From a virus, in the IMG/VR virus record IMGVR_UViG_3300036761_000276, positions 1 to 28,199 of that record: a stretch of DNA of 28,199 bases; one strand, 5' to 3'. Below, piece by piece: positions 4,363-24,442 of the stretch (position 1 is the first letter of the stretch; every line of letters begins with the position of its first letter). The notes under the pieces are model-generated. The model was not told the origin of the DNA, ran no database searches, and saw nothing but the letters and a program-made list of their open reading frames with translations. Both the position numbers and the translations under genes were made by a program.

Positions 4363-4371
4363 GCCTATCGG
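4363..4371 (-). promoter_or_regulatory. Start-associated motif upstream of endolysin
   Basis: The minus strand reads CCGATAGGC, ending 6 nt before the GTG. It is preceded by TGAA, as at the copies at 5232 and 14681. Confidence 0.7.
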
Positions 4372-4377
4372 TTCAGG

Positions 4378-4563
4378 CTAGGCGGGCTTCGGGGCGTTCG
4401 AGATCCCGTACACGCCGCCAGCTGAGACGAGCGCCGCGAGCACGATCGTGACCCACTGGCCGGCCGTGACGGCGTCGAAGCCCACGTCGCCGACGAGCAC
4501 CGCGGCGAGCGAGCCGAGACCTGCGATGGCGCCTGCGTAAATGGCTTTCGCTACCTGTTTCAT
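4378..4563 (-). CDS. Holin, two transmembrane helices
   Basis: A 61-aa hydrophobic protein with a short basic N-terminus (MKQVAKAIYAG). It has two predicted membrane helices: about residues 8-26 (IYAGAIAGLGSLAAVLVG) and 37-56 (WVTIVLAALVSAGGVYGI). The size, two-helix topology and position immediately before the endolysin match the small class II-type holins of actinophages. It would form the membrane lesion that releases the endolysin. The start is ATG 4563, 21 nt after the upstream stop, with the CCGATAGGC motif in the gap in place of a normal Shine-Dalgarno sequence. Confidence 0.85.
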   Translation of the reverse strand: MKQVAKAIYAGAIAGLGSLAAVLVGDVGFDAVTAGQWVTIVLAALVSAGGVYGISNAPKPA

Positions 4564-4570
4564 ATGCCCG

Positions 4571-4579
4571 GCCTATCGG
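4571..4579 (-). promoter_or_regulatory. Start-associated motif upstream of holin
   Basis: The minus strand reads CCGATAGGC followed by CGGGCAT and the ATG. The AGG lies 8 nt from the start codon. The gap is 21 nt, the same as before the endolysin. Confidence 0.7.
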
Positions 4580-4584
4580 CGGGC

Positions 4585-5073
4585 TCAGGCACTCGAGCGG
4601 TAGTAGCCGTCGCCGGGGTTCCAGAGGATGTTCGCACCCGACGGGACGATCGCCGCGCCCGAGATGAGCATGTCGTGAGCGGTGACGGGGACGATGTTCG
4701 CGTCCGTGCCGGAGGTCGTGTCCGAGTCGTAGCAGACGAGGAGCTTGCGCCAGGCATCGCCGGCGGCGACCGACGTCCACGTCTGCGTCCCGAACGTGAG
4801 CGTCACGCGATCGTTCGTGTCGTCGACGGTGCCTGCGGCAATGTCCGCGTCGGTCAGCGTCTTTCGCGCGTAGTTCGTGTTCGTTGCCTCGTCATTCGCG
4901 GCGGCGAGGATCGCCGAGAGCGTGTCGTAGTCGCGCAGTACGTCATCGGATTCGAGCGCAGCCTCCCGGAGGACGACGAGGATGAGCGCGGAGTTCGCAG
5001 GATCATTGCCGTCAACGCGGGCGTGGTACTCGGCGGCCTTGCCGCGCGAGATGTTGAAGACGAAGCCGGCCAT
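4585..5073 (-). CDS. Conserved minor structural (tail-region) protein
   Basis: A 162-aa protein with FNISRGKAAEYHARVDGNDP at the start, a helical middle (VLRDYDTLSAILAAANDEAT) and a beta-rich C-terminal half (LLVCYDSDTT, DANIVPVTAHDM). From memory this layout (R.D.NDPANSAL...L..YD.L...L.A.N.E.TN..Y.RK.LTDAD) is a recurring phage structural protein found near tail fibres. No enzyme motif is visible. ATG 5073 directly abuts the TAG of the 50-aa gene (TAGATG). It probably forms part of the tail tip or a fibre. Confidence 0.7.
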   Translation of the reverse strand: MAGFVFNISRGKAAEYHARVDGNDPANSALILVVLREAALESDDVLRDYDTLSAILAAANDEATNTNYARKTLTDADIAAGTVDDTNDRVTLTFGTQTWTSVAAGDAWRKLLVCYDSDTTSGTDANIVPVTAHDMLISGAAIVPSGANILWNPGDGYYRSSA

Positions 5074-5226
5074 CTACTCGACCGCCGGCGAGCCCGTCGC
5101 CGTCACGTTCACGACCGGGACGACCTTGCCGCCGAGCGCCGTCTCGATCTCCGCGGCCGGTGAGCCGACAGCGACGAGTGGCTGCCCGGTGTTCGTGACG
5201 GTTCCGGGGAGGGCTTGCTCGGGCAC
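5074..5226 (-). CDS. Small protein, 50 aa, between minor tail genes
   Basis: The ORF runs from GTG 5226 to a TAG that abuts the next ATG. The protein starts MPEQALPGTVTNTGQPLVAV and contains EIETALGGKVVPVVNV, an acidic-to-hydrophobic beta-rich composition. Codons end mostly in G or C, as in its neighbours. It begins 15 nt after the upstream stop, and the CCGATAGGC motif fills that gap, which strongly supports the start. Function is unknown. It is probably a small structural or fibre-associated protein. Confidence 0.62.
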   Translation of the reverse strand: MPEQALPGTVTNTGQPLVAVGSPAAEIETALGGKVVPVVNVTATGSPAVE

Positions 5227-5231
5227 GGCTC

Positions 5232-5240
5232 GCCTATCGG
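5232..5240 (-). promoter_or_regulatory. Start-associated motif upstream of 50-aa gene
   Basis: The minus strand reads TGA ACCGATAGGCGAGCC GTG. The stop codon of the upstream gene is part of the repeated TGAACCGATAGGCG block also seen at 14681-14693. Confidence 0.7.
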
Positions 5241-5241
5241 T

Positions 5242-5835
5242 TCAGAACCAGAACGTCCCCAGCGCATCTCCCGCCGACGCGCCGTGATAGACGACCTCAA
5301 GCACGCCGTCGATGACCGTCTGATCGCTTGCGTGCTCGTGACAGACCTGGATGTCGAAATCGAAGTCGGACGTCGTGACGATCCGGGCCGTGAAGCAGAA
5401 CGTGTGAAAGACGTCACCGCGCTCGAGCCCGCTGGCACCGTAGGGGTCCTTCCACCACGACGACGGAAACCAGCCGAAGCCGCCGGCGTTGACGAGGATC
5501 ATGCGCCCGGCGTTGAACTCGGGGTCCCACTTGATTCCGATGCGGAACTCGTACTCTCCGAGCGACCCGGATCCCTGACTCTCGATCCGCGTCGTATTCG
5601 CGTCGGGCGCCGAGAAGTACGTTCCTGCCTCCGTCGTGTTGGTCGTATCCCAGTCGAGAGATTCACCCGCACCGTTCGCAGTGATGACCTCAGAAGTGGT
5701 GAGCCGGCGGAAGATGTATGGGCGCGTCCCGCCGGCGGCGGTAACGGGCGCGGGTCTGCGCGCCAGCGCCTCGATCTTGCGCCCGTGCGTGTTCGCGCTC
5801 CGCGCTGGTGTCTCGCGTCCGACGGGAGCGCTCAC
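5242..5835 (-). CDS. Minor tail / fibre protein with beta-sandwich domain
   Basis: A 197-aa protein. Its N-terminal 50 residues look extended and Arg/Pro-rich. The rest is beta-rich with many aromatic residues (FGWFPSSWWKDPYGASGL, DVFHTFCFTARIVTTSDFDF), as in a carbohydrate-binding-like sandwich. The start is GTG 5835, overlapping the TGA of the tail hub gene (GTGA). Position after the hub gene and before the lysis cassette fits a receptor-binding or tip-decorating role. I do not recognise a named family. Confidence 0.6.
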   Translation of the reverse strand: MSAPVGRETPARSANTHGRKIEALARRPAPVTAAGGTRPYIFRRLTTSEVITANGAGESLDWDTTNTTEAGTYFSAPDANTTRIESQGSGSLGEYEFRIGIKWDPEFNAGRMILVNAGGFGWFPSSWWKDPYGASGLERGDVFHTFCFTARIVTTSDFDFDIQVCHEHASDQTVIDGVLEVVYHGASAGDALGTFWF

Positions 5836-7043
5836 GGCAGGTCTCCGTCCATGGTCGCCATGACGGGCGGACGTCCAGCCATGCCCTTGCCGATCGGCGG
5901 CCCGAGCTCGATCGGGCCTCGCGCGGAAAACCGGTAGCTGTACTCCTGGACGCGCTGCGTGCCGGAGAACCCGCCTGCAAAGCTCGTCCCTGCGGCGACG
6001 TGGATCTTGTCGCCGGTGCGAAACGCTGGGGCGATTCCGCGATCAGGTGTGATCGAGACGAGCGTCTTGCCACGGACGCGCATCGACGTGAGCATCTGCC
6101 AGCGCAGTCGAGTGAGATTTCGCATGGCGTCGGCCTCGGCGTCGTTCGCGGAGTCGTCGATGTCGACGACCATGCGCTCGTAATGCAGAGCGCGTGATGC
6201 CGCGACGAGCGCCAGGATCGCCGACTGAGGAGGATCGGGGAGCCCGCCGTCGGTTCCGGTGACGTTGAAGCGCCAGTGCTGGTCACCGGCCGGATCGCTG
6301 GTCGACTTCACACGAGGGCCGCCGTAGATCCACAGCTTGTTCATGAGGTCGCGATAGTCGCGCTCGCGTTGGCACGCCCGGGCGTTGTAGAGACCAGTCG
6401 CGAACTCGAACTTGACTGAGCCCGAGAGGTCGTCTCCGAAGAGACCGTTGTACGCGGAGATCTCGGCCATGTTGTCGCCAGACTCGATCGGGCGCTCGAC
6501 GATGTCGCACTGCCCGGTCGAGGCGAGACGACCGAACATCTCGGCGAGTGTCATCGGCCAGTCAGTCGGCGCGCCGGTCATGTCCGGACCACCCGTCTCG
6601 AACGTGCCGAGAACGATGCCCATCGGGCCCTCGCCGAGCGCCGGGTCGCCGGCGACCATCGAGTTCGTCAGAGCGGATTCGACGATCTGCGGGCCGGTGA
6701 CGTTGTCGGCGATGATCGAGGGCTTCGAGAAGTCTCCGTCAGGGTCGCGCACCACGCGAAACTCGAAGATCTCGCTCGCCGAGGCGAACGTCGCGGCACG
6801 GTAGCCGGAGCGCTCGTCGGCCTGGTCGTCAACGTCGACGCACTTGCCGTGGAAGTCGAGAGTGGCGTTATCGGGGTAGATCTTGAGCCGTGCTGCTTCC
6901 CAGTCGCCCGAGACTCGATCGAGAGGCACGCGGATCGTCGCGAAGGACGGACGCTGCCACTGATGCGTGACCGACGCGTCCTGGACGAACTGCGTGACGT
7001 CGACGTCGGAGCCACCCGCCTCCTTGAGAACCGCCGTCGCCAT
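5832..7043 (-). CDS. Tail tip / baseplate hub protein (Gp37-like)
   Basis: This 403-aa protein follows the tape measure and a distal-tail-like gene, the standard place for the siphovirus tail hub. The N-terminus (VTHQWQRPSFATIRVPLDRV) and ARLKIYPDNATLDFHGKCVD look like the first beta domain of hub proteins. The middle has QIVESALTNSM, typical of the region where a gp37-like hub discusses its ring contact. The C-terminus has ITPDRGIAPAFRTGDKIHV and RVQEYSYRFSARGPIELGPP, resembling the closing barrel of ReqiPepy6 Gp37-like tail proteins. No hydrolase motif is evident. It would cap the tail tube and carry receptor-binding proteins. Confidence 0.68.
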   Translation of the reverse strand: MATAVLKEAGGSDVDVTQFVQDASVTHQWQRPSFATIRVPLDRVSGDWEAARLKIYPDNATLDFHGKCVDVDDQADERSGYRAATFASASEIFEFRVVRDPDGDFSKPSIIADNVTGPQIVESALTNSMVAGDPALGEGPMGIVLGTFETGGPDMTGAPTDWPMTLAEMFGRLASTGQCDIVERPIESGDNMAEISAYNGLFGDDLSGSVKFEFATGLYNARACQRERDYRDLMNKLWIYGGPRVKSTSDPAGDQHWRFNVTGTDGGLPDPPQSAILALVAASRALHYERMVVDIDDSANDAEADAMRNLTRLRWQMLTSMRVRGKTLVSITPDRGIAPAFRTGDKIHVAAGTSFAGGFSGTQRVQEYSYRFSARGPIELGPPIGKGMAGRPPVMATMDGDLP

Positions 7044-7493
7044 CTACGCGGGCATGATCGACTCGGAGACGAACCCGAAGATGAAGCCCTTGAGATCGCC
7101 GTCGAGCGGGGGAAACGTCGGCAGGATGTTGCAGCGACCCACGATCGCCGCGCCCGATCCGAAGTTCAATGTGCTGTTCGCGCGGAGCGCAGAGCGGGCC
7201 TTCGCCATCATGTCGCTCATCAGGGCGTCGGCTCCCGTGATCCCAGTCGTGTCCGTGCGCGCGAGGATCACCCCGGCGGGAACGAGGAGCGCACCGTTTT
7301 CGTAGAAGGAGTGCACGAGCGAGCCATCGGTCTGCCCCTTCGGGTCGACCGCGCCCTCAGCCTCGCCGGCGCCGAGCGGACCCGAGCGACGTGGATCCAC
7401 GAAGTACGTGTCTCCCGTCGCCTCGTTGAAGGTCAGCGTCCCGGCAGGTGTCACCCAGGTCGTCAGATCTGACCAGCGGAGCGCGGCCGCCAT
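7044..7493 (-). CDS. Minor tail protein (distal-tail position)
   Basis: A 149-aa protein whose ATG overlaps the tape-measure TAA (TAATG) and whose stop abuts the next ATG. It contains LVHSFYENGALLVPAGVILA and ends in GDLKGFIFGFVSESIMPA. It is short for a complete Dit protein (usually 200-300 aa) and no family signature is clear. Gene order (tape measure, this, hub) argues for a distal tail or tail-tip adaptor. Confidence 0.55.
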   Translation of the reverse strand: MAAALRWSDLTTWVTPAGTLTFNEATGDTYFVDPRRSGPLGAGEAEGAVDPKGQTDGSLVHSFYENGALLVPAGVILARTDTTGITGADALMSDMMAKARSALRANSTLNFGSGAAIVGRCNILPTFPPLDGDLKGFIFGFVSESIMPA

Positions 7494-9754
7494 TAGAAGC
7501 CGACTCCCCAGCCAGCGGCGGCCAGCTCGGCAGACGCGAGCTGGGCGCCGGGATGCCAGGCCCCCTCGACGAGCCGATGCAGCGTGGCGTTCTGATCGCG
7601 CAGGAGTGATGTCTGCACGTGTGATTGAGTTGCGATCTGGCCGCTATCGGATTGGAAGTTCGAGCCGTACTGGCCGATCTCACCAGTCAGCTTCGAGAGG
7701 AACTCGAACTGCATCGAGCGCACCTGCTCTTCGGTGATGCCACCGCCCGGCTTGCCCTTCGTGCCCTTGCCGGCGCCCTTGGCCGGAGTGCCGCTTTCAC
7801 GTAGCGGCCGCACGGTGGCGACCCTGTGCGCGCTCGCCCGCTTGCCGTAGAAGTCGTCGAGACGCTTCTGCCTCGCCTCGGCGGCCTCGCGCAGCTTCTC
7901 CCGTCGCTCCCTCGCCTTCTCGCGCTGATCGGCGAGCTTCTGCTCGCCCTCTGAGACGATCGCGTCGATGGCCGACTGCTCGGAGGCGAGCTGGCCGTAG
8001 AGCCCGCGCAGCGTCTCCTTCTGCTTCGCGCTCAGGTTCTTGCGGGCCTCGAGCGCGTCGGCCTGGCGCTGGTAGCGGGCGAGCAACTCGCGGTGCAGGC
8101 GGAGATCATCGGCCGTGGATGCCGTCGTGCCGGCGCGGGCGAGGTCGAGGGTGATGTCGGCGATGGTGCGGCGGGGTCGCGTTCGACTCGTTCCACCGTC
8201 CTGATCCTGCCCGGCGCTCGGACCACGTGGACTGCCACCGCGGCTCTTCCGCGGAGCCTCTGCTCCGGGAATCGCGCTTCGGAGCTTGGCCGCTTCCTTT
8301 GCCGTGATGAGCCCGCGGTCCTCGAGCTTGTCGATGGTGGCGACCGGAAGCCGGCCATCGCGCGCCTGCCGCATGAGCCCTTTAAAGTCATCGACCGTCG
8401 TAATCGTCCCCGGCTTGCCGCCGCCGCTCGGAATCACGTCTGGTATGGACAGAGCGAGCGAGATCGCGATCGGCCCTAGGCCGGCTAGGCCGAGCAGCCC
8501 CGCCCGGAGGCCGGCTACCTTTCCGCTCGCTCCGGTTGCGGCCGTTCCGATGCCTCCGAGTGCGCCGACAGAGGTCGCCTCTGCACGAACCGCGGACGCA
8601 CCGACAAGCCCGAAGCCTGCAGCGAGGCCTCTTAGTCCTCCAAGCGCCATTTGTGACTTGCGAAGAATCCCGAGGATGAGCACGGTTTCGATGACACGAT
8701 CAAGACCGCCGAGAGCTTTGGAGACACCTTGGACAATAGGTGCAAGACGATCCATGACCGCGACAAACCCCTTCACAACCGACTCGCCCGTCTTCACGGC
8801 CTCGTTCACCCGCCGCTGCAGCTCCTCCTGATGCTCGGCGGTGTCGAGCCACTTGGTCAGCTTGTCCGTGTACTCGGTGACGGTCGGCGAGAGCCCGCGC
8901 CCGAGCGCTTCGCGCAGGTTCTCGATCGCGACCCGCTGCCGGTCTGAGGCCGCGATCCCCGTCGTCGAAGCCTTCTCTGCGGCCTGCCCGTATTGCTTGG
9001 TCAGGAGCGTGATGAGCTCGATGCCGGTCGAGCCGGCCTTGGCGTCGATACCGATACGGCGCAGCGCCCCGGCCTGGCCGAGACTGGCCTTGACGACGAG
9101 CTTGGCTGCCGACTCGAGATCCATGTACCGCCCGCGCGAGATGTCGGCTGCGAGCGCGTTTCGGCGCAATGCTTCGTCGACGTCCTTCGTTCCACGGACG
9201 AAGAGCTGGAACGTCTTCAGCAGCTCCTCGTCGTCGAAGCCGAGCGCGGATTGCGCTTTGATGACGGTCTCAATCCGCTTTCCATACTTCTCCCACGAAA
9301 GCCCTGCTGCCTCGAGCGCTACCTGCGTCTGACCGAGGACGAGCTCCTCTTCTCGGGCGGCGGCGAGCGAGGACTTGATCGCGAAGAGCACACCTGCTCC
9401 GCCGAGGAAGGCACTCGCGTAACCGATGGCAGAGGCGCGCAGTCTTCCCATGCTCCGTTGCTGCCGATCCTGCGAGCGAGCGAGCGCGTCCGTCTCGCCC
9501 CGAAGCGCACGCTCGGCGTTTCGCACCTGCAGCTCGGCGCTGGCCTGCGCGCGGTATGCCGCGGGCCCCTTCTGCAGCGAACGGCGCAGCTTGTCCTGGG
9601 CGAGCTCGAGGCGGATCGCCTCGTCGCTCATTCCGCGAGTTGAGTTGCGATATGAGGCCTCAGCGGCAGCGTTGTCATTCTTGAACTCGGCGAGTCCAAC
9701 GGCCTCGTAACTGACGCGCGCGACGCCGGCGAGGTTGCTACTTCCGAGCGGCAT
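7493..9754 (-). CDS. Tape measure protein
   Basis: The longest gene (753 aa) is helix-rich with the usual tape-measure layout. There is an N-terminal coiled coil (about 25-105), a hydrophobic segment near 108-127 (SAIGYASAFLGGAGVLFAIK) and a long Ala/Leu helical body. A second hydrophobic stretch lies at about 415-440 (LLGLAGLGPIAISLALSIPD). Then come a basic low-complexity linker (about 495-530), a Lys/Arg/Glu-rich coiled coil (about 570-650) and a Gly-rich tail. It sets tail length and is packed inside the tube; at about 1.5 angstrom per residue the tail would be roughly 110 nm. ATG 9754 overlaps a mini-ORF stop (TGATG). Confidence 0.92.
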   Translation of the reverse strand: MPLGSSNLAGVARVSYEAVGLAEFKNDNAAAEASYRNSTRGMSDEAIRLELAQDKLRRSLQKGPAAYRAQASAELQVRNAERALRGETDALARSQDRQQRSMGRLRASAIGYASAFLGGAGVLFAIKSSLAAAREEELVLGQTQVALEAAGLSWEKYGKRIETVIKAQSALGFDDEELLKTFQLFVRGTKDVDEALRRNALAADISRGRYMDLESAAKLVVKASLGQAGALRRIGIDAKAGSTGIELITLLTKQYGQAAEKASTTGIAASDRQRVAIENLREALGRGLSPTVTEYTDKLTKWLDTAEHQEELQRRVNEAVKTGESVVKGFVAVMDRLAPIVQGVSKALGGLDRVIETVLILGILRKSQMALGGLRGLAAGFGLVGASAVRAEATSVGALGGIGTAATGASGKVAGLRAGLLGLAGLGPIAISLALSIPDVIPSGGGKPGTITTVDDFKGLMRQARDGRLPVATIDKLEDRGLITAKEAAKLRSAIPGAEAPRKSRGGSPRGPSAGQDQDGGTSRTRPRRTIADITLDLARAGTTASTADDLRLHRELLARYQRQADALEARKNLSAKQKETLRGLYGQLASEQSAIDAIVSEGEQKLADQREKARERREKLREAAEARQKRLDDFYGKRASAHRVATVRPLRESGTPAKGAGKGTKGKPGGGITEEQVRSMQFEFLSKLTGEIGQYGSNFQSDSGQIATQSHVQTSLLRDQNATLHRLVEGAWHPGAQLASAELAAAGWGVGF

Positions 9755-9795
9755 CAGCTACGCCCTCTCAGCGTGAGGGTGTCCGTGGCGGTCAT
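9754..9795 (-). CDS. Mini-ORF, 13 aa, coupling TIM-barrel gene to tape measure
   Basis: ATG 9795 overlaps the TIM-barrel stop (ATGA) and the TGA overlaps the tape-measure ATG (TGATG). It encodes MTATDTLTLRGRS. Its only plausible role is to carry ribosomes across a 37-nt gap, and it could be a chance ORF. Confidence 0.2.
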   Translation of the reverse strand: MTATDTLTLRGRS

Positions 9796-11620: not shown

Positions 11621-11624
11621 CGGC

Positions 11625-12605
11625 CTAGGTCGGGCTCGTGGTGCTCAGGGCGAGCGCGTTCTTCGTGATGATTTCCATGTTGTCCGCCCAGACCGCCTGG
11701 CGCTTCGTCGAGAACGAGAGCGTCTCCAAGATCGGAGCGCCGTCGACGTTGACGGGCACTGTGATCGCGGTGTACTCGATGCCGTTCGAGTCGAAGACAA
11801 CCTGGAGAGTCGCGCTCTCGGCGATCTTGATGTTGAGCGCCTCGGTGAAGATCGTTGTCGTGAGCACAGTCGAGGAGGCGGCGCCACCGTGGAACTTGCG
11901 GTAGTCACCATCCGAGACGTAGATGCGACGGAAAGTCCCCGAAGCGTCGTACTGTCCCGCAACGGAGTCGAAGGCCGCGAGCCCGAGATCGCCGCGTAGG
12001 ATCGAGACGTTGCGGTTGATGTCGATTGACCAGGCGTCGTGTGTGCCGGGCGCCGAGCCACCGATCGTGACCGTGACGAGTGGGTAGGAATACTTGAGAT
12101 CGGTCGCAGGCGCGGCCGGTGCGACGGGCTCAGTGACTCCGAGCGTCGCCGTGAGCGCAATCGCCTCGATCGAGTACGCCACGCCTTGCAGCGCTTCGCC
12201 GGAGGCCGAGAGACGGGAGATCCGCGAGTCGTCGAAGCGAGTGGTCTGAAGGCCGGGGATGACGTCCCAGAGCGTCAGGTAGGGCAGCGCCTTGGACGGC
12301 GACGCCGTGTGCGTGAAGGGGCCTGCGCCCGAATCCACGTTCGTGCCCTGCACCGCTCGCCCGAGGAACGCGAACTCACTTGCGCGCATCCAGCCCGACC
12401 AGCCGCCCTTCGGATCGGCGCCGACGACGTTGTTGTCGGGACGCTGCGCGGAGGCGTCTGTCTCGGGAAGCTGGATCAGGATCCGATCGGGGTTGATCGC
12501 CGCGTCCCCGTTGACGCGGAAGACGTGCGTCGGCGTGGCGGCGACTGCGCCCTTGGCCGTCTGGATGGCGGCGTAGATGAGGCGGGTGTTGCCAGCTTCC
12601 GCCAC
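11625..12605 (-). CDS. Major tail (tube) protein
   Basis: A 326-aa beta-rich protein placed between the tail terminator region and the chaperones. The N-terminus (IYAAIQTAKGAVAATPTHVF) and the GGWSGWMRASEFAFLGRAVQ stretch are typical of phage tail tube proteins whose first segment pairs with the neighbouring subunit. The middle (HDAWSIDINRNVSILRGDLG) and C-terminal half (IYVSDGDYRKFHGG) are also consistent with a tube fold. GTG 12605 overlaps the upstream TAG by one base. It is somewhat longer than minimal tube proteins and may carry an extra surface domain near residues 165-200. Confidence 0.8.
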   Translation of the reverse strand: MAEAGNTRLIYAAIQTAKGAVAATPTHVFRVNGDAAINPDRILIQLPETDASAQRPDNNVVGADPKGGWSGWMRASEFAFLGRAVQGTNVDSGAGPFTHTASPSKALPYLTLWDVIPGLQTTRFDDSRISRLSASGEALQGVAYSIEAIALTATLGVTEPVAPAAPATDLKYSYPLVTVTIGGSAPGTHDAWSIDINRNVSILRGDLGLAAFDSVAGQYDASGTFRRIYVSDGDYRKFHGGAASSTVLTTTIFTEALNIKIAESATLQVVFDSNGIEYTAITVPVNVDGAPILETLSFSTKRQAVWADNMEIITKNALALSTTSPT

Positions 12606-12808
12606 TACTCAGCGCCCCCCTTCTTTGCCTTGACTTCGCCGAGGTCGACGAGGAACGCCAGATCGCGGATGCCGATGTAAACCTGGCGATCGGTCGTCTC
12701 GAAGCGAGGATTCTCGGAGGAGAGTTCGATCTCCTCGCCGCCCGCGTTGAACTGGGCGGCGTTGAGATCCTTCGCGAGCTCGACCGCGTACACGGGATCG
12801 GCAGCCAT
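12605..12808 (-). CDS. Small protein, 67 aa, before tail tube gene
   Basis: A 67-aa acidic protein (AVELAKDLNAAQFNAGGEEI, RFETTDRQVYIGIRDLAFLV) ending in a Lys/Gly tail. It is unrecognised. Position between tail terminator and tail tube suggests a tail completion or tube-associated factor. ATG 12808 lies 22 nt after the upstream stop, with the CCGATAGGC motif in the gap. Confidence 0.6.
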   Translation of the reverse strand: MAADPVYAVELAKDLNAAQFNAGGEEIELSSENPRFETTDRQVYIGIRDLAFLVDLGEVKAKKGGAE

Positions 12809-12815
12809 CGACGCC

Positions 12816-12824
12816 GCCTATCGG
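12816..12824 (-). promoter_or_regulatory. Start-associated motif upstream of 67-aa gene
   Basis: The minus strand reads CCGATAGGCG; the AGG lies 8 nt before the ATG. There is no other Shine-Dalgarno candidate in the 22-nt gap. Confidence 0.7.
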
Positions 12825-12830
12825 CAGGGA

Positions 12831-13701: not shown

Positions 13702-14351
13702 CAGGGCAACCGGCGATATGGGTGCAGTCGGTGGCGCACGGCTGGCGGCATTCCCGCTCGAGCCGCTGTGAAGTCGACCTCCGGCGTAACGACGTAACCG
13801 CTCATCGCGTTCGAGGAGAAGGAGCCGGGGTTCTTCACGATGTTGTCGATCCACTGCAGGCAGGCGCTCTGCACATCATCGGGGACTGCGGCCATGCCCC
13901 AGAAGCCGGTGACGGTAGCTTCCCACTCAAAGCCGGGCTGCTCCTCGGCAGCCGTCAGCTCGACGGTGAGGATCTCGAGGTAGGTGCCGCCGAGAGCGCC
14001 GCCGACTGGACGGAGCCGGTACTCGTCAGCCGTGAGCGTCTGCTGCGAAGGGGAGGGCAAATCGGTATAGAGCTTGACTACGGTCTCCGAACGCAGGTCG
14101 TAGGGAGCGAGGTCAATCCAGCCGACGTCCGCGCCGTTGACCATCTTCCGGCGCAGCGGGAACGTTCGCATTGGGGTTCCAGAGACGATGGCGAACTCGC
14201 GCTCGCAGTGCGTCTCGATCGAGGACGAGACGAGGTTTACTGCGTCGATCAGGATCTCGTCGCGGCTCGTGTCGTCCTCGTCGCGGTAGACGTAGCGGCG
14301 CGCATCCTCGATCGAGACGAGCGCACGCGCAGTTAGGGTGGCGACGCTCAT
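13701..14351 (-). CDS. Head-tail connector / adaptor (gp6-like)
   Basis: The 216-aa protein starts at ATG 14351, overlapping the upstream TGA (ATGA). It opens with a helical region (LVSIEDARRYVYRDEDDTSR, LIDAVNLVSSSIETHCEREF). The gp6-type strand region follows (DLAPYDLRSETVVKLYTDL, LEILTVELTA), then VTGFWGMAAVPDDVQSACLQ. The FWG..AVP.DVQ..C motif is a hallmark of the gp6-like head-tail connector family, which forms the ring under the portal. It is unusual that about 6 kb of other genes separates it from the capsid gene. Confidence 0.82.
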   Translation of the reverse strand: MSVATLTARALVSIEDARRYVYRDEDDTSRDEILIDAVNLVSSSIETHCEREFAIVSGTPMRTFPLRRKMVNGADVGWIDLAPYDLRSETVVKLYTDLPSPSQQTLTADEYRLRPVGGALGGTYLEILTVELTAAEEQPGFEWEATVTGFWGMAAVPDDVQSACLQWIDNIVKNPGSFSSNAMSGYVVTPEVDFTAARAGMPPAVRHRLHPYRRLP

Positions 14352-14674
14352 GCTGCGAGCGCCTCCGACTCGTCGATCTCGAAGGTGACGCGGCCGGAGC
14401 CATACGCGGTTCCTGTCCCTTGAGCATGTACCCACCAGCGCCCGACAGCGGGAGTGAGGGTGAGCTCGTAGATGCCGGTCGAGACCTTTGTCGCCTCGGG
14501 GCTCGCGGGATAGGTGTAATCCGTCTTCGCCGCGCCGCGCGACCTCGCGCTGAAAACGACGGTCGTCGGATCGGTGAGCGTGTCGTAGTTGCCCGACGCC
14601 GGCACGCTCTCCGTCTTCCAGGTCGCCCGGGTGATGATCTTGTTGCCCCGCACGAAGACCTCGATCTCAGCCAC
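14348..14674 (-). CDS. Small beta-sandwich structural protein, 108 aa
   Basis: A beta-rich 108-aa protein (AEIEVFVRGNKIITRATWKT, STGIYELTLTPAVGRWWVHA, TFEIDE). It resembles an Ig-like or head-fibre module. The start is GTG 14674, 16 nt after the upstream stop and directly after the CCGATAGGCG motif. A longer in-frame ATG at 14740 would sit inside the repeat gene and bypass the motif. It is likely a capsid- or connector-associated decoration. Confidence 0.62.
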   Translation of the reverse strand: MAEIEVFVRGNKIITRATWKTESVPASGNYDTLTDPTTVVFSARSRGAAKTDYTYPASPEATKVSTGIYELTLTPAVGRWWVHAQGTGTAYGSGRVTFEIDESEALAA

Positions 14675-14680
14675 GTGAGC

Positions 14681-14689
14681 GCCTATCGG
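14681..14689 (-). promoter_or_regulatory. Start-associated motif upstream of 108-aa gene
   Basis: The minus strand reads TGA ACCGATAGGCGCTCAC GTG, the same TGAACCGATAGGCG block as at 5232-5244. Confidence 0.7.
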
Positions 14690-14690
14690 T

Positions 14691-15911: not shown

Positions 15912-15912
15912 C

Positions 15913-17667: not shown

Positions 17668-17679
17668 AGCCGCTTCCCC

Positions 17680-18249: not shown

Positions 18250-18263
18250 TTAGAGCACTCCTT

Positions 18264-18503: not shown

Positions 18504-18507
18504 ATCT

Positions 18508-19227
18508 TTAGTTCAGAGCTTCGAGGTAGAGCGCGTGAGCCTGAATCGTCTCCGTGGTCGAACCGGACCGGGCGATCTGGAAGGTGAGCCCCTGCGCTGC
18601 CGTCGAGTCGAACGCAACCGTCGCGGCGGCAGAGTCGGGGATCAACCCGGCGTAGTACGTCGTCGCGTTCAGCAAGTTCAGGTTCGGGGTGACCAGGCCG
18701 ACGACCATCGCCGCCCCCGCCGTGCCTGCTGAGCGACATGTCGCCATGCCCTCGGCCCTCACCATCAGGTTGGTCTGCGACGCCTTGGCCGCAATCGCGG
18801 CGGAGCTCGTCAGCCGGGTGTTGTCCGCGTTCGACAGGCCGAAGCTCCACGTCCAGTTGCCCGGGGTCGCGCCGGTCGTCATGCGCGCCCATTGCGTGTG
18901 CTTTACCGTCTTGCCCGGCCCGAAGTAGTTGGCAGGCAGGAAGGCGAAGTTGGTCGTCGCGGCGGGCGAGCAGACGGCTGTCGTGATCGTGACCGCCGTC
19001 GGGTCAGCGATCAGGAACGGCTGCCGCAGGTCGCGGTAGTAGATCCCGTCAGCCATCTCGAACCAGCCGCCGCCGAGCTTCATGCGCTCGCTGGCGTCGA
19101 GGAACTGAACAGCCGAAAGGACGCGGTCGTCGCGCATCGCCCGCTCGGTGATGAACGCCGCCGGGTCGGTGATTGCACGGCTGTACCGGGGTCGGCGTCC
19201 GAGCAGGGAGTTGAGATTGCGCTTCAC
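18508..19227 (-). CDS. Beta-rich appendage protein, 239 aa
   Basis: A 239-aa protein with a basic N-terminus (MKRNLNSLLGRRPRYSRAIT) and a C-terminal beta-sandwich (KHTQWARMTTGATPGNWTWS, FGLSNADNTRLTSSAAIAAK, YYAGLIPDSAAATVAFDST). The sandwich resembles the core of the 189-aa neighbour. The N-terminus may anchor to the capsid. GTG 19227 follows GGAGG at 7 nt. A head fibre or decoration role is inferred from position and composition. Confidence 0.6.
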   Translation of the reverse strand: MKRNLNSLLGRRPRYSRAITDPAAFITERAMRDDRVLSAVQFLDASERMKLGGGWFEMADGIYYRDLRQPFLIADPTAVTITTAVCSPAATTNFAFLPANYFGPGKTVKHTQWARMTTGATPGNWTWSFGLSNADNTRLTSSAAIAAKASQTNLMVRAEGMATCRSAGTAGAAMVVGLVTPNLNLLNATTYYAGLIPDSAAATVAFDSTAAQGLTFQIARSGSTTETIQAHALYLEALN

Positions 19228-19236
19228 GTCGTCCTC

Positions 19237-19644
19237 CTAGTTGGCGTAGATCGCCTTGAAGGTGTAAGCGATCGAATCGCCCGACGCGAGCCCGATGCCG
19301 ACGAAATCACCCTTGAGAAAGAGATTGCCGCCCGAGGCCGCGTCGAAGAGTCCCGAACAGGTCACTGTGCCGGCGCCCGTCGCGGTGCGAGTTCCAGTGA
19401 CCTGGTAGGTGTCATTCGTGACCGTCGTCGTCACACGCGAGCTTGCGCCGACCGTGTGATCGGTTCCGGCAGAGGTTGTGAGGTCGACGAGCTTCTCTAC
19501 CGTCGTCGGGCCCATTCCCGTATCCGTCCTCAGGGTTGCCGTCTGTGTCCCTGTCCCCCAGCCGATGTTCACAGGCTCTGTGCCCGCGCCCTTGATTCGG
19601 TTGGTCGTGATGTCAAGCCCGGCGTTCACGACGAAGGTCGCCAT
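19237..19644 (-). CDS. Structural protein, 135 aa, Thr-rich
   Basis: A 135-aa Thr/Gly-rich beta protein (MATFVVNAGLDITTNRIKGA, then VNIGWGTGTQTATL and SSRVTTTVTNDTYQVTGT), with the look of a phage capsid-associated or fibre protein. ATG 19644 lies one base after the upstream TGA. I recall similar proteins with VNAGL..T.R.KG....P..I.WGTG in phages, annotated only as structural. Confidence 0.65.
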   Translation of the reverse strand: MATFVVNAGLDITTNRIKGAGTEPVNIGWGTGTQTATLRTDTGMGPTTVEKLVDLTTSAGTDHTVGASSRVTTTVTNDTYQVTGTRTATGAGTVTCSGLFDAASGGNLFLKGDFVGIGLASGDSIAYTFKAIYAN

Positions 19645-19645
19645 C

Positions 19646-19873
19646 TCAGCCCGCCTTGATCCGCTGTCGGTTGCGCCAGTTCGCGCGCTTGATCAGGAAC
19701 CAGGGCCGTAGCTTTCGCAGCGAGAAGCGCCCCCAGGCTGTCGAGGTCACGGTGCCAAAGTTGTCGATCGTGCCATCTGCGCGGATGACCTGGATGCCGA
19801 TCTCGTAGCGGACATTAACATGGCCCGCGAACATCGAGGATGCAGACGGGACAGCGACGGCAGGTTCACTCAT
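19646..19873 (-). CDS. Hypothetical protein, 75 aa
   Basis: A 75-aa protein: Ala/Pro-rich start, a beta segment (HVNVRYEIGIQVIRADGTID) and a basic C-terminus (SLRKLRPWFLIKRANWRNRQ). The basic end could contact nucleic acid or the capsid interior. It starts 21 nt after the upstream stop, with the CCGATAGGCG motif in that gap. Confidence 0.58.
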   Translation of the reverse strand: MSEPAVAVPSASSMFAGHVNVRYEIGIQVIRADGTIDNFGTVTSTAWGRFSLRKLRPWFLIKRANWRNRQRIKAG

Positions 19874-19879
19874 CGCTGC

Positions 19880-19888
19880 GCCTATCGG
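19880..19888 (-). promoter_or_regulatory. Start-associated motif upstream of 75-aa gene
   Basis: The minus strand reads GGCCGATAGGCGCAGCG ATG; the AGG lies 7 nt before the start. Confidence 0.7.
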
Positions 19889-19894
19889 CCGCGT

Positions 19895-20332
19895 CTAGCT
19901 GTACTCGACGACGAACAGGCTCGGGGCGCCGTAGTCTGAGTTCGCGCCGATCCCGAGGGTGACCGTCTTGATGCGGTAGCCCGGACCCAGCACGAGATCG
20001 GCCGGCAGGGGGGCCGTCGAGTGAACGTTCGTCGTCGCACCGATCTGAGCGGTCAACGTGTGGCCCGGAGCCCAGGTGTAGCGGCAGGTCGTCGAGGCCG
20101 CCTGCGCGGCGGAGGAGCCGAAGCTCTCGAAGATGACGTCCGTGCCGTCGTCGAGTTGAAGGATGGGCTGCGGCGTCTGGGTGATCCCCTGGACGAGCGC
20201 AACGCTGACCGCGATGAGCTTCCAGAACTTGCCCGCCGGCACCGTCTCGGAGAGCTCGGTGTTCGCCGCGACGTTCGTCCCGTTGAGCTGGACGAGAGCT
20301 CCGATCGAAGTCTGAGGAACGCCGTCGATCAT
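19895..20332 (-). CDS. Beta-rich structural protein, 145 aa
   Basis: A 145-aa protein with strong strand periodicity (ALVQLNGTNVAANTELSETV, AGKFWKLIAVSVALVQGI, RIKTVTLGIGANSDYG). It is probably a capsid decoration or fibre domain of the jelly-roll type. It begins directly after a 157-bp noncoding gap carrying a strong hairpin and the CCGATAGGCG motif, so it opens a new expression unit within the late operon. Confidence 0.6.
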   Translation of the reverse strand: MIDGVPQTSIGALVQLNGTNVAANTELSETVPAGKFWKLIAVSVALVQGITQTPQPILQLDDGTDVIFESFGSSAAQAASTTCRYTWAPGHTLTAQIGATTNVHSTAPLPADLVLGPGYRIKTVTLGIGANSDYGAPSLFVVEYS

Positions 20333-20339
20333 CGCTCGC

Positions 20340-20348
20340 GCCTATCGG
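20340..20348 (-). promoter_or_regulatory. Start-associated motif upstream of 145-aa gene
   Basis: The minus strand reads GGCCGATAGGCGCGAGCG ATG, at the end of the 157-bp gap 20333-20489. Confidence 0.7.
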
Positions 20349-20440
20349 CCTCTGAGCGCACCTCACGGTCGCTCCCGCGGAGCCGATGCCTAGCCGCCAG
20401 GCGCCGCGATGGACGATCTGTCTTGAGCGTCTGCGGAGTA

Positions 20441-20476
20441 GGATGAAGGGGACACCTTTCGGCGCCCCCTTCGTCC
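20441..20476 (-). terminator. 16-bp hairpin with GAAA loop in a 157-bp intergenic gap
   Basis: On the minus strand, GGACGAAGGGGGCGCC and GGTGTCCCCTTCATCC flank a GAAA loop. Fifteen of sixteen positions pair (13 Watson-Crick, two G-U, one C-A mismatch). The GNRA loop occurs only on the minus strand, the transcribed strand of the late genes. There is no U-tract after it, so it is not a classic intrinsic terminator. It may be a partial terminator, an mRNA-stabilising stem or an RNase processing site that lets the coiled-coil/capsid message differ from the appendage genes. The rest of the gap holds no supported gene. Confidence 0.65.
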
Positions 20477-20489
20477 TTGGTCTTCTCGG

Positions 20490-20732
20490 TCAAGCTGCCT
20501 CTTCGTCCTCGGACGCTGCCTCGTCTTCGTCCTCGGCAGGCTTCAGCTTCTTGACACGTGCGATCTCGGCCTTGACGCCGGCCACGAGCGCATCGAGCTG
20601 CTTCTTGTCGAGGCGTTCCTTCGTGCCCTCGGCGAGGCTCTTCAGCCGCGCCTCGTAGCCCTCGAGCTCGTGCTCGAGGGCACCGACGTAGGCGTCGACC
20701 CGCTCCTTGGTGGCCTCTTCTGCAGTGAACAT
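20490..20732 (-). CDS. Charged coiled-coil protein after capsid gene, 80 aa
   Basis: An 80-aa Glu/Lys-rich helical protein (EEATKERVDAYVGALEHELE, YEARLKSLAEGTKERL) with an acidic tail (EDEDEAASEDEEAA). ATG 20732 has AGGAGG 12 nt upstream. It could be a capsid-associated or scaffold-like helper, but the capsid protein already has its own N-terminal coiled-coil domain. The strong acidic tail is typical of DNA-mimic or capsid-interior proteins. Unproven. Confidence 0.65.
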   Translation of the reverse strand: MFTAEEATKERVDAYVGALEHELEGYEARLKSLAEGTKERLDKKQLDALVAGVKAEIARVKKLKPAEDEDEAASEDEEAA

Positions 20733-20756
20733 GTCTGTCTTGTCCTCCTCTCAGGT

Positions 20757-22148
20757 CTAGAAGGTCGGGAGGATCAAGCCCGAACCACCGATGGTCGCGT
20801 TCCCGAGCGGGTACTTCCCGGCCGAGAAGGCCACCTCGCCCCAGATCGCGAGCCGCACCGACTGCGGCGCATTGGACTGCTCGAACGTGAAGCGCCGAGG
20901 CATCCCGTCACCGGCGAGCCAGACCCGCAGGTCGGGCATGCGCATGACCAGGATGACGTCCTCGTTCGTGCCGAGGTTCGTCGGGATGTTCGCGTCCGTG
21001 ACGACCGGCAGGCCTTGGATCTGACCGACGACCGCGCCGTATTCGGGAGCGTTGCCGACTGCGAGCGCGTTGTGCGGCCCGCCTGCATCCGGAATGAACA
21101 ACGGCCGGTTTGACGAGTCGAGCGCCGCCGTGCCCCAGCCCCAGCGCCGCGGGTGCATCAGGATGCTCGTCGCGGGCGCGAAGCGGCCCGAGGCGATCTG
21201 CTGAATTGCGTCCGCGAGCTTGGGGTAGAACTCCGGCACCGTAGGCGTCGCGTCCGTGTACGTCACAGCCACGATGCCTGCCGTCGAGCGGACGCCGAGC
21301 ACGGTTCCCGACGTACCGTCCGCATTGATGATCGCGGAGTCGACCTTCGTGAACCAGTCGGCCGTCAGGTCCTCGAAGATCGCCTGCACGACGCCTTCGG
21401 AACGCTCGACCGCCTGGCGCGACACGTCTTGCTGCCCGGCGTACTGCCGGATGTTGATCGTCAGCAGCGTGTCGTCCATGTCGGTTTCCTGGACTGCCGC
21501 GTTCTCCGAGGCCTGTGCTGCCACCCCAGAGCCCGTCGTGATACGCGAGATGTTCAGCGTCATCCCCGAGGCGGGGAGCTGACGCTGCGGGACTGCCGCT
21601 AGGAACGGAGCCCCTGCACGCGCGAGCGGCGCGTACTCGTCGAGCAAGTACTGCGGGACGGTGAGGCCGGCGAAGGCGCCGGTGCCGACGTCGCGCAGCT
21701 GCTTTCCGGTCTTCTCGCGGTAGATGTCCTCCTGCTCGCGGTTGTTGCGGATCTGCCGCTCGCGAGCCTCGGGATCGCCGCAGAACGCCGCGTAGGCGTC
21801 TCGGACGACGTCGGCCTGCGAGTGCGTGTCCGGCCGGTAGGCGAGCTCCGTGCGCTGACCGCGCGGGGTCGCTCCGGTCACCGCTGCCGAGGCCGGGTTC
21901 TCCTCGGCGACGCGCTCGCGTCGCTCCGCGTCGGCGAGGTTGCGCTTTGTGCGCTCGACCTCTTCGGCGGCCTCGTCGAAGGACGTCGCGGCGGTGTCGA
22001 ACTCCACCCCGAACGCCTCGAGGTCGGTGTCTACCGTCTCGTCGGGCGCTTCCATGACGCGCTTGTGCGCCTCGTCGAGCGCCGTCTTGCGCTCGTGCAG
22101 CGTTCGCTTCGCGGCCTCGTACAGCTCGCGAAGCTTTTCGATGTTCAT
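20757..22148 (-). CDS. Major capsid protein, HK97 fold, with delta domain
   Basis: A 463-aa protein. Residues 1-85 are a coiled coil (KLRELYEAAKRTLHERKTAL and on), the scaffold-like delta domain cleaved by the prohead protease. The HK97 core begins after about residue 140 (VGTGAFAGLTVPQYLLDEYA), with the RAGAPFLAAVPQRQLPASGM N-arm region and VFEDLTADWF-like spine helix (VQAIFEDLTADWFTKVDSAI). The P-domain strand and A-domain follow (GLPVVTDANIPTNL, AIWGEVAFSAGKYPLG). ATG 22148 overlaps the protease TGA (ATGA) with GGAG at 8 nt. Capsomer subunit, probably expressed at the highest level in the operon. Confidence 0.92.
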   Translation of the reverse strand: MNIEKLRELYEAAKRTLHERKTALDEAHKRVMEAPDETVDTDLEAFGVEFDTAATSFDEAAEEVERTKRNLADAERRERVAEENPASAAVTGATPRGQRTELAYRPDTHSQADVVRDAYAAFCGDPEARERQIRNNREQEDIYREKTGKQLRDVGTGAFAGLTVPQYLLDEYAPLARAGAPFLAAVPQRQLPASGMTLNISRITTGSGVAAQASENAAVQETDMDDTLLTINIRQYAGQQDVSRQAVERSEGVVQAIFEDLTADWFTKVDSAIINADGTSGTVLGVRSTAGIVAVTYTDATPTVPEFYPKLADAIQQIASGRFAPATSILMHPRRWGWGTAALDSSNRPLFIPDAGGPHNALAVGNAPEYGAVVGQIQGLPVVTDANIPTNLGTNEDVILVMRMPDLRVWLAGDGMPRRFTFEQSNAPQSVRLAIWGEVAFSAGKYPLGNATIGGSGLILPTF

Positions 22149-22936
22149 GCGATTCTCCTGGTGAGCGTTTTGTAGGTCGCGTCGACCTGCGCCTTGACGC
22201 GGGTCGTGCGTCCCGTCGCCGCTTGGCCCGTCTTCTCAGACGTGACCGCGCTCGCACCCTCAGGCGACTCGCCAGAGTGATGCTGATGGCCCTCGGTGGA
22301 AACCGAGTGACCGGGCGCCCCTAGATCCGGGACGCGAAGTGATGCAGCTGCGAAGCTGCGAAGAGTGCTCTCTGTGTACGGGTTCGCGCCCTGGGCAGCG
22401 ACGCACACGTCGTAGAGGTTCGCGATGCGCTCGATCGTGTAGAGCTCGTCGTCGCGGCCATCGTCGAGCTCGCGGATGACCGCTGACTCCTCGGCGATCG
22501 TGAACGCGAACGAGGCTTGAGCGACGACGCCGCGGCGCATCTTCGCGGCCATGCGGACGGCGTCAGGATCCTGCGCGTCGACGCGGGCCTCGAAGCGGAA
22601 GCCATGCTCATCGGCGCGAAGCTGGAGTCCGCCGATACCCTCGACGTCGGTCGCAGCGACGGCAGAGGTCATGTCGTGCCCGTGATTCAGGTGGACGAGC
22701 TCGTCGCCTGAGCTGACACGCTGCAGGACCTCGTCGAAGGCACCGCGCGCGACACGCTCGCGCATGCGGAACCACTTCCCGTCGTAGAGCGTGTAGGTGT
22801 CGTCGAAGGTGGCCGCGTAGCCGGAGACGACCCAGGAACCGTCGCCCGAACCTGTCGGGTCGGAGACGCGAAGCTGGCTGATCGGAGAGACCGCGAGGCG
22901 GAAGAGGTCAGCGCGAGAAGCTGCGACGACAGACAT
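22145..22936 (-). CDS. Prohead protease (HK97 family, U35)
   Basis: A 263-aa protein with the U35 layout: VVSGYAATFDDTYTLYDGK, a LNHGHD motif with the catalytic His near residue 85, and QASFAFT with the catalytic Ser near 142. It cleaves the capsid delta domain during maturation. The C-terminal 60 residues are Ser/Thr/Gly/His-rich and probably auto-cleaved. ATG 22936 is 21 nt after the portal stop, with CCGATAGGCG in the gap. Its stop overlaps the capsid ATG, as expected for enzyme and substrate made together. Confidence 0.9.
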   Translation of the reverse strand: MSVVAASRADLFRLAVSPISQLRVSDPTGSGDGSWVVSGYAATFDDTYTLYDGKWFRMRERVARGAFDEVLQRVSSGDELVHLNHGHDMTSAVAATDVEGIGGLQLRADEHGFRFEARVDAQDPDAVRMAAKMRRGVVAQASFAFTIAEESAVIRELDDGRDDELYTIERIANLYDVCVAAQGANPYTESTLRSFAAASLRVPDLGAPGHSVSTEGHQHHSGESPEGASAVTSEKTGQAATGRTTRVKAQVDATYKTLTRRIA

Positions 22937-22943
22937 CGCCCGC

Positions 22944-22952
22944 GCCTATCGG
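22944..22952 (-). promoter_or_regulatory. Start-associated motif upstream of prohead protease
   Basis: The minus strand reads GGCCGATAGGCGCGGGCG ATG in a 21-nt gap after the portal stop. Confidence 0.7.
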
Positions 22953-22957
22953 CCGGG

Positions 22958-24205
22958 CTACTGCGCTGCGGTGTCCATCGCTCCCGCGTCGGCCGGCATA
23001 TTCGGGTTTTGCATGCCCCCCACGGGAACAACTTGCGGGATTTGTCCCGCACCGTCCGGCAGTGGAGGCAGCCCCAGTTCTGCGCGGGCCTCGTCGGGCA
23101 AGAGAATCCCCGACTGCACCTCGGTGACGAGCATCCGCGACTCGGTGATCGCATCGCTGCGAACGCGCTTCCAGTCGAACATCGGATAGTCGCGGGCCCC
23201 CGGACCGAAGAAGCTCGGATCGGACTGGATCGTGCCCTCGATTCGCATCCGACGCCCCTCGAGCCCGTAGCGCGTCCAGCGATCCTCCTCGTGCTCGGGC
23301 GTGATCGGCTTGTCATCGCCCGCTGTCGCCGCCCAGAGCAGAGACGGTGGCACTCCGAGAATTCGCCCGACGTCGTAGATCGAGAAGGCCTGGGACTCGA
23401 CGAACTGAGCATCCTGGAGCGAGAGCCCAATCGTCTCGATCCGCGGGTCGCCGCCGAAGACCTTGACCTGCGAGCCCTCCTCGAGCGTCGACTCGGAGCC
23501 GATATAGACGTCGCGCCAGTGCTTCGCCTGCTCCTCGGTCACCTTCTCGGGGAAGACGACGGCAACCGTCTTCGCGAGCCCCTTCGTGTATTGCTTCTCC
23601 TCGGCTTTCGTCTTCGCGAGCGACGTTGCCCAGGTGCGTCGGTGCTCCTCGATCGGCGAAGGGGCGAGCAGGCTTCCGGGAGACGAGAAGCCCACGCGGA
23701 AGTGCAGTACCTCGGCCGAGGTCAGCCAGTCCGTCCACTTGCCCGTCTCGAGCGTGATCCTGTACTCGGCGCGGTGTAGATCCTTGTTCCAGCGCACGTC
23801 GACGAGGTCGGGATGCACGACGTAGATATCGCTTACGCGGTTACCGTCCGAGGTCTTCAGCCAGTAGGCGTTCGAGCGCGCGGTCAGCGAGGCCTCGGTG
23901 CATTCCCAGGCGTAGAACCAGGAGTAACGCTCGTTCGGCTGCCCCGCGAAGAAGCGCGCCTGCCAACTTCCGGTGACGCGCCGGCGATCGGCATCCTCGC
24001 CGCGCCAGACGCGCAGGCGGTGCTTGGCGATCGCCTCGGAGGCGATGCGGATCGCCTGCTTCCAGGCGGGAAGGCCGGCGACCTCCTTCGCGTTGACGAC
24101 AGTCTCCGAGCCGGAGCGTGATAGTCCCTCGGCTTTCAGGAACGCTCCGAGGTTCGCGTCGCGCGACTGGATCGCGACGTTGCCATGCCTGCCCCGGACG
24201 ATCAT
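22958..24205 (-). CDS. Portal protein (HK97-type)
   Basis: A 415-aa protein with the standard portal order. It has a clip/wing start (GNVAIQSRDANLGAFLKAEG), RIASEAIAKHRLRVWRGED and a WYxAWECTEA-like region (SWFYAWECTEASLTARSNAY). Then come VLHFRVGFSSPG, the stem region (FVESQAFSIYDVGRILGVPP) and the Pro-rich C-terminus. It forms the dodecameric DNA gate and is cofactor for terminase docking. The start is ambiguous: ATG 24205 forms ATGA with the upstream stop but has no Shine-Dalgarno sequence, while GTG 24247 would add 14 residues and overlap the upstream gene by 46 nt with GAGG nearby. Confidence 0.9.
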   Translation of the reverse strand: MIVRGRHGNVAIQSRDANLGAFLKAEGLSRSGSETVVNAKEVAGLPAWKQAIRIASEAIAKHRLRVWRGEDADRRRVTGSWQARFFAGQPNERYSWFYAWECTEASLTARSNAYWLKTSDGNRVSDIYVVHPDLVDVRWNKDLHRAEYRITLETGKWTDWLTSAEVLHFRVGFSSPGSLLAPSPIEEHRRTWATSLAKTKAEEKQYTKGLAKTVAVVFPEKVTEEQAKHWRDVYIGSESTLEEGSQVKVFGGDPRIETIGLSLQDAQFVESQAFSIYDVGRILGVPPSLLWAATAGDDKPITPEHEEDRWTRYGLEGRRMRIEGTIQSDPSFFGPGARDYPMFDWKRVRSDAITESRMLVTEVQSGILLPDEARAELGLPPLPDGAGQIPQVVPVGGMQNPNMPADAGAMDTAAQ

Positions 24206-24408
24206 CCGAGGATTTGGAGGTAGAGGACTCTTTCGCGCGGGATCCACGCCTCGCCCTCGAGCGAGAATGTCCGATCGGCTGCCTCGAGCTGCTCGGGTGC
24301 AGCGAGGCGGTAGTGGCCGGCGGCCATGCCAATCCAGATCCCTTCGAGCGAGCGTTCCTCGTCCTTCAGATGAAGCCTGACCCGGCGCTTGCGAAGGAAG
24401 AGAGCCAT
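24202..24408 (-). CDS. Small protein between terminase and portal, 68 aa
   Basis: A 68-aa protein starting MALFLRKRRVRLHLKDEERS. It then has a beta segment (EGIWIGMAAGHYRLAAPEQL) and a hydrophobic end (RERVLYLQIL). A protein of this layout between terminase and portal is common in actinophages, without an agreed role. The initiation region is unusual: the 35-nt gap carries two copies of the CCGATAGGCG motif. Confidence 0.7.
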   Translation of the reverse strand: MALFLRKRRVRLHLKDEERSLEGIWIGMAAGHYRLAAPEQLEAADRTFSLEGEAWIPRERVLYLQILG

Positions 24409-24415
24409 CCGCCGC

Positions 24416-24424
24416 GCCTATCGG
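24416..24424 (-). promoter_or_regulatory. Start-associated motif, proximal copy
   Basis: The minus strand reads CCGATAGGCGCGGCGG ATG, with the AGG at 8 nt. Confidence 0.7.
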
Positions 24425-24433
24425 CCGTTGAGC

Positions 24434-24442
24434 GCCTATCGG
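24434..24442 (-). promoter_or_regulatory. Start-associated motif, distal copy, overlapping terminase stop flank
   Basis: The minus strand reads TAGGCCGATAGGCGCTCAA right after the terminase stop codon, 18 nt from the proximal copy. It shows that the motif can be duplicated as a unit. Confidence 0.7.

Follow-up and report, generated by a model that had tools for sequence, protein, structure and literature searches.

Start-associated sequences (SAS) have been described in phages since 2011, and the literature searched reports them from two groups of isolated phages. In Cluster K mycobacteriophages the SAS is GGGATAGGAGCCC (Pope et al. 2011, PMC3203893), and conservation beyond the bases that pair with ribosomal RNA (rRNA) was argued there in the same way as is done below (PMC3203893). 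Cluster EF Microbacterium phages possess the SAS GGGAAAGGACCCC at about ten genes, which was reported to be unrelated in sequence to that of Cluster K (PMC7302621). The role of the published SAS is not known (PMC3203893, PMC7302621, PMC11373665, PMC12699233). Here, a short motif, CCGATAGGC, is analysed, which precedes nine genes in the late operon of the virus record IMGVR_UViG_3300036761_000276. The window is the whole IMG/VR virus contig (28,199 bases, 65.8% GC). Copies of the motif are found on the coding strand, at a constant distance from the start that suits ribosome binding and in most cases just behind the previous stop codon, and the motif is kept at orthologous starts of diverged mosaic phages. 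It is almost certainly a selected start element. Its extended form CCGATAGGCG is probably (probability roughly 0.6) a start-associated sequence, which would serve as a cis element of the late mRNA and mark nine late genes in place of a Shine-Dalgarno (SD) sequence.

Number, strand and position of the motif

Ten copies of CCGATAGGC were found on the minus strand and none on the plus strand (0.11 expected), and ten copies were never reached in shuffled sequences. In eight copies the next base is a G, which yields CCGATAGGCG. All ten are intergenic, although intergenic bases make up only 5.4% of positions 3697-27134; an equal frequency within genes or on the non-coding strand was therefore not seen. 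At nine copies the AGG is located 6-8 nucleotides (nt) before an ATG or GTG, and the motif ends 5-7 nt before these starts, all on the coding strand. The tenth copy (24434) is the tandem partner of the copy at 24416. These results reproduce what a first-pass annotation, made from the letters alone, had reported: the ten coordinates and the minus strand were exact, and the extension in eight copies, the intergenic location and the spacing at nine starts were all found again.

Copies with one mismatch occur four times on the minus strand, all within genes, and six times on the plus strand, which corresponds to background. As near-copies are present only at this level and none is found at a start, the motif occurs either in its exact form or not at all. 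Most sites lie in gaps of 15-22 nt within one tightly packed operon, and in three cases the motif begins one base after the TGA of the preceding gene. The 8-mer CCGATAGG was detected once on the plus strand (27120-27127), in codons 3-5 of the minus-strand gene 26535-27134, at about chance level. When a trans-acting RNA complementary to the motif was sought in the window, this position was the only 8-mer complement beyond the motif sites themselves.

No other SD was seen at the marked genes, as had already been stated in the first-pass annotation. The remaining genes of the operon have ordinary, variable SD sites of the GGAGG type, for example AGGAG (capsid), GAGGAGG before 20732 and TAGGAGG before 19227, or their starts overlap the previous gene.

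Retention of the motif in related phages

Relatives carrying the motif were fetched by homology of capsid, terminase and portal protein, not by the motif (L009, L010, L089/L090, L212, L213 with L303, L216, and L308 with L312). Over their whole records, 18 copies of CCGATAGG are on the gene strand and a single one is on the opposite strand (L089/L090 counted once). As an unbiased test, 7-mers enriched upstream of called starts were ranked. CGATAGG came first in three of the rankings, those of the window (p=2e-15), L308/L312 (4e-14) and L213/L303 (2e-10), and third in the pooled set L009/L010/L090/L212/L216 (3e-12), after the overlapping GCCGATA and CCGATAG. A motif search of upstream regions, as proposed at the first pass, thus ranks it first for the window and third or better for each of three independent sets of relatives. 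The same test yielded AAAGGAG or GAAGGAG as top 7-mer in control relatives, and the known SAS (ATAGGAG) in the Cluster K phage Anaya, which served as positive control. In a scan of larger GC-rich loci, another start motif not of the SD type was found nowhere outside the group except in Anaya.

Orthologues of the marked genes in the carriers possess the motif, exactly or with slight changes, in all 14 distinct cases with homology-defined starts. These are the small gene between terminase and portal (L009, L010, L212, L308, L391; in L010 as the variant CCGATAAGGA), the protease (L009, L010, L212, L308), the genes for the 108-amino-acid (aa) protein (L308, L387) and the 67-aa protein (L387), and the endolysin (L312, L390). 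The motif-linked starts of L387 were checked by hand. Among orthologues of unmarked genes, the motif was present in 2 of 43. In sister contigs that lack the system (L011, L215, L310, L311 and others), the same genes have an ordinary SD or other starts. L090 shares the terminase at 60% identity, but its portal and capsid proteins are only 21-23% identical to those of the window. Since the carriers are mosaic, the motif evidently stays with particular genes across unrelated modules. At starts, it is still conserved between phages with protein identities of about 40-60%.

A pattern scan revealed further carriers, including G324 (35.7 kb), in which seven exact copies of CCGATAGG share one strand and are placed, among other genes, at those for protease, holin and endolysin. 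Because these contigs were chosen on the motif, they extend the set of carriers and are not proof; likewise, sites searched with CGATA cannot show that CGATA is invariant, and its invariance rests on the homology-defined starts. A scan of viral contigs with the pattern TGAACCGATAGGCG gave mostly chance matches and was discarded. At 56 sites the distance between AGG and start is 5-11 nt with a mode of 8, and at about half of them a stop triplet ends 0-7 nt upstream, compared to 10% at random. The first-pass annotation had suggested a phage-specific start element. The association with starts and the conservation beyond an SD were substantiated, but the element is not specific to one phage: it is common to a group of related uncultivated phages.

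Pairing with 16S rRNA and alternative explanations

The first alternative is that the motif is simply the SD favoured by this phage group, of weak or moderate strength, whose flanks were kept through shared ancestry or codon context. This appears rather unlikely. It agrees with the AGG at normal spacing in the SD position and with the absence of another SD at the marked genes, and a low, uniform rate of initiation could suit protease, holin and endolysin. For the calculation of duplex energies, an actinobacterial 16S tail was assumed. The consensus motif forms a duplex of -4.3 kcal/mol with the pairing pattern GA-x-AGG, in which the T is unpaired. A change of this T to A would give -7.6 kcal/mol, yet the T is invariant. 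Site means are -5.0 kcal/mol for marked genes and -7.0 kcal/mol for the others, and good SD sites reach -9 to -16 kcal/mol. The bases CC, T and C are invariant but unpaired with 16S rRNA, which bears out the earlier remark that conservation extends beyond the AGG. Furthermore, the variants CCGATAGCGC (L090) and CCGATAAGCG (L213) keep CCGATA and have lost the AGG, so pairing with rRNA may be of secondary importance. Taken together, the conserved unpaired bases, the retained T and the variants lacking AGG indicate that rRNA pairing does not explain the conservation. Degeneracy would also be expected of an ordinary SD, whereas ten of ten copies are identical over 9 nt with no near-copies at starts, other SD sites of the same operon vary freely, and the conservation lasts between phages with proteins of only about 40-60% identity. 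Judged by anti-SD pairing and degeneracy, the motif does not fit a canonical SD (-4.3 kcal/mol, all-or-none copies).

A small RNA hairpin, GCC-GATA-GGC, could mask part of the SD and be bound or melted by a regulator. Its predicted energy is -3.4 kcal/mol, and the pair -1/+8 fits at 43 of 58 sites compared to 38.3 after shuffling (P=0.007, relatedness ignored), with slight covariation (T-A in L213, L216 and L394; A-U in L308). The published motifs of Clusters K and EF (GGG...CCC) could self-fold as well. However, a stem this short (two to three pairs) is marginal, its middle pair is broken without compensation at seven sites (ACGATAGG), and the outer pair is absent at 15 sites (in the window at 3 of 9). 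The hairpin is thus quite unlikely as an explanation and is regarded as a lead only.

Very unlikely is a promoter element for leaderless late transcripts or transcripts with very short leaders, including a version without a -35 box. Promoters of the sigma-28/WhiG type have the -10 box GCCGATAA, which GCCGATA resembles; L010 has GCCGATAAGG, and the distance to the start codon is about that of leaderless genes. A TAAA-like -35 box at the right distance, however, was no commoner than at random positions, which does not fit sigma-28/WhiG promoters; the sequence upstream is no richer in AT than elsewhere and has no strongly informative position. The spacing varies over 5-11 nt as for an SD, and most sites occupy 15-22 nt gaps of one packed operon. 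Finally, a repeated linker that serves the recombination of phage modules and not gene expression is extremely improbable: the motif does lie at gene boundaries of strongly mosaic phages, but it is bound to one strand, a narrow distance before the start and particular genes, ordinary homologous recombination needs far more than its 9 bp, and unmarked boundaries are equally abundant.

Proposed function

A start-associated sequence is therefore preferred here as the explanation of the motif, and it quite probably acts at the initiation of translation. The 30S subunit would bind by way of GA(U)AGG, which would pair weakly and with an interruption to the 16S 3' end, and the additional conserved bases (CC, the mismatched U, and CG) might be read by an RNA-binding factor of host or phage or by another part of the initiation complex. 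It is possible, if somewhat doubtful, that a sequence-specific factor beyond rRNA pairing would be needed. In this way, low-copy late proteins (protease, holin, endolysin and small structural proteins) could be translated at a level or time of their own, apart from the capsid, which uses a strong canonical SD. The relatives of the capsid gene likewise lack the motif at their starts.

Three observations speak against a start-associated sequence. A tandem copy without a start of its own is present in the window and also in L308, where the gap between terminase and small gene contains two copies with a tRNA-Met gene (L308:9696-9768) between them. The variants CCGATAGCGC and CCGATAAGCG weaken the SD part itself. 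In addition, no candidate gene for a factor was found among the genes shared by the carriers, most of which are incomplete contigs; the shared families are structural genes.

On balance unlikely, and put forward tentatively, is a translational regulon, in which a phage or host factor would recognise CCGAUAGG, possibly as a mini-hairpin, and jointly control maturation and lysis genes apart from the capsid across a group of uncultivated actinobacterial phages. If so, the shared GAUAGG would place the Cluster K SAS in the same recognition system.

As to the host, relatives of the capsid were found in genomes of Acidimicrobiia, Actinomarina, Spongiactinospora and Streptomyces, none of which has the motif. 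In 296 genomes of the class of an Acidimicrobiia metagenome-assembled genome, only scattered matches (at most seven per genome) were detected, which is at odds with the motif being the SD of that host class. The carriers G000, G317, G324, G327, G329 and G330 have tape-measure and tail genes in common that were not seen in the sampled non-carriers, with uneven sampling. These shared genes might reflect a common host group.

Gene content of the window

The late operon on the minus strand has the order terminase, small gene, portal, protease, capsid, connector and tail genes, holin and endolysin (Table 1). The names endolysin, holin and prohead protease, given at the first pass, agree with matches to PG_binding_1, phrog_2879 and Peptidase_S78/phrog_80, respectively. 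No homologue of the 50-aa open reading frame (5074..5226) was found.

The region 22145-25922 is strongly mosaic: in comparisons with L009, L010, L090, L212 and L308, the terminase of the window differs in its closest relatives from portal and capsid. The left arm, which has no motif, contains the minus-strand genes 153-728 and 629-1417 with matches to VRR_NUC and weak matches to PD-(D/E)XK nucleases.

Table 1. Copies of the SAS-like motif and associated genes in the window.
Feature	Position	Strand	Remarks
Motif CCGATAGGC before endolysin gene (GTG at 4356)	4363..4371	-	Variant ACGATAGGCG at orthologous lysin of L312, CCGATAGGCC in L390
Motif before holin gene (ATG at 4563)	4571..4579	-	ACGATAGGTG at syntenic 61-aa gene of L312
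Motif straight after TGA stop, before 50-aa gene (GTG at 5226)	5232..5240	-	
Motif before 67-aa gene (ATG at 12808)	12816..12824	-	Exact motif at L387 orthologue
Motif straight after TGA stop, before 108-aa gene (GTG at 14674)	14681..14689	-	Kept in L308, L387
Motif before 75-aa gene (ATG at 19873)	19880..19888	-	
Motif ending a 157-nt gap, before 145-aa gene (ATG at 20332)	20340..20348	-	
Motif before prohead protease gene (ATG at 22936)	22944..22952	-	Kept at protease of L009, L010, L212, L308; by synteny L090, L213, L216
Motif before small gene between terminase and portal (ATG at 24408)	24416..24424	-	Kept in L009, L010 (variant), L212, L308, L391
Tandem second copy, 18 nt upstream of 24416 copy, without own start, just behind terminase stop	24434..24442	-	
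Endolysin-like protein, 219 aa, peptidoglycan-binding domain	3697..4356	-	PG_binding_1 8.8e-11; phrog endolysins
Holin-like protein, 61 aa	4378..4563	-	phrog_2879 holin 1e-4
Small open reading frame, 50 aa, function unassigned	5074..5226	-	Gene call
Small protein, 67 aa, immediately upstream of minor tail gene	12605..12808	-	Gene call; L387 orthologue, 40%
Protein of 108 aa, overlaps head-tail adaptor gene, function unassigned	14348..14674	-	Gene call; L308 orthologue, 43%
Small protein, 75 aa, structural region	19646..19873	-	Family search: no match
Protein of 145 aa, structural region, function unassigned	19895..20332	-	Family search: no match
Major capsid gene, contrast case with canonical AGGAG SD and no motif	20757..22148	-	phrog_2263 6e-51
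Prohead protease, 263 aa	22145..22936	-	Peptidase_S78 5.7e-22; phrog_80
Small basic protein, 68 aa, overlaps portal start	24202..24408	-	Carrier orthologues at 51-79%

Comparison with known start-associated sequences

Like the Cluster K SAS, the motif is short, asymmetric and nearly invariant, occurs in one orientation at the ribosome-binding position of some genes only, and is conserved beyond the bases pairing with 16S rRNA. When the sites of Anaya were compared, the motif of the window was likewise found a few nt upstream of starts in coding orientation. The number of copies per genome is also similar (11-19 in Cluster K, 10 in the window). The hexamer GATAGG is identical in both, its unpaired T included, but the flanks differ (CC...CGC versus GG...AGCCC), as had been pointed out at the first pass, and the window motif lacks the AGGAG core. 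In contrast to the Cluster K sites, which are mostly outside the structural module, it marks head, tail and lysis genes. GGGATAGGAGCCC itself had no match in the window with up to two mismatches; matches with three mismatches were at chance level, and none was located at a motif site. Inverted repeats of 17 bp upstream, like those of the extended SAS (ESAS) that accompanies some of the Cluster K sites, were not found, and positions -30 to -2 held no strong information (31 sites). The genome is not of the Cluster K type: by capsid, the nearest isolates are mycobacteriophages of other kinds, among them Porcelain, MiaZeal, Courthouse, Bipper and Typha, at 36-44% along two thirds of the protein. 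For the terminase, they are Streptomyces phages and others at about 25%.

Like the Cluster EF SAS, the motif is a conserved sequence placed where ribosomes bind, and both are found at about ten genes. The EF core, however, has A instead of T and pairs well (-10.1 compared to -4.3 kcal/mol), it is linked to an extended upstream sequence, and its flanks differ. Matches of GGGAAAGGACCCC in the window were at chance level, none of them at motif sites. With the canonical SD, the motif has its position and the AGG element in common, but it is weakly and interruptedly paired, contains invariant non-pairing bases and is restricted to a subset of genes.

As far as can be judged from these sequences, the motif is a variant of the SAS in its behaviour, but stands outside both published motif families (K and EF). 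The GATAGG shared with Cluster K may be due to homology, convergence or a common reader. Since the EF motif was reported to be unrelated in sequence to that of Cluster K, this kind of element recurs with different letters. A text search of partial literature for CCGATAGG showed no phage paper among the ten matches listed of 224. The present case would be a third, widespread version with other flanks, which marks late maturation and lysis genes. It adds comparative evidence that was not found in the SAS papers searched: in mosaic genomes the motif is retained by particular genes, and a base that reduces its pairing with the ribosome is invariant. The invariant non-pairing bases provide precise mutants for asking whether phages use a start signal beyond SD pairing.

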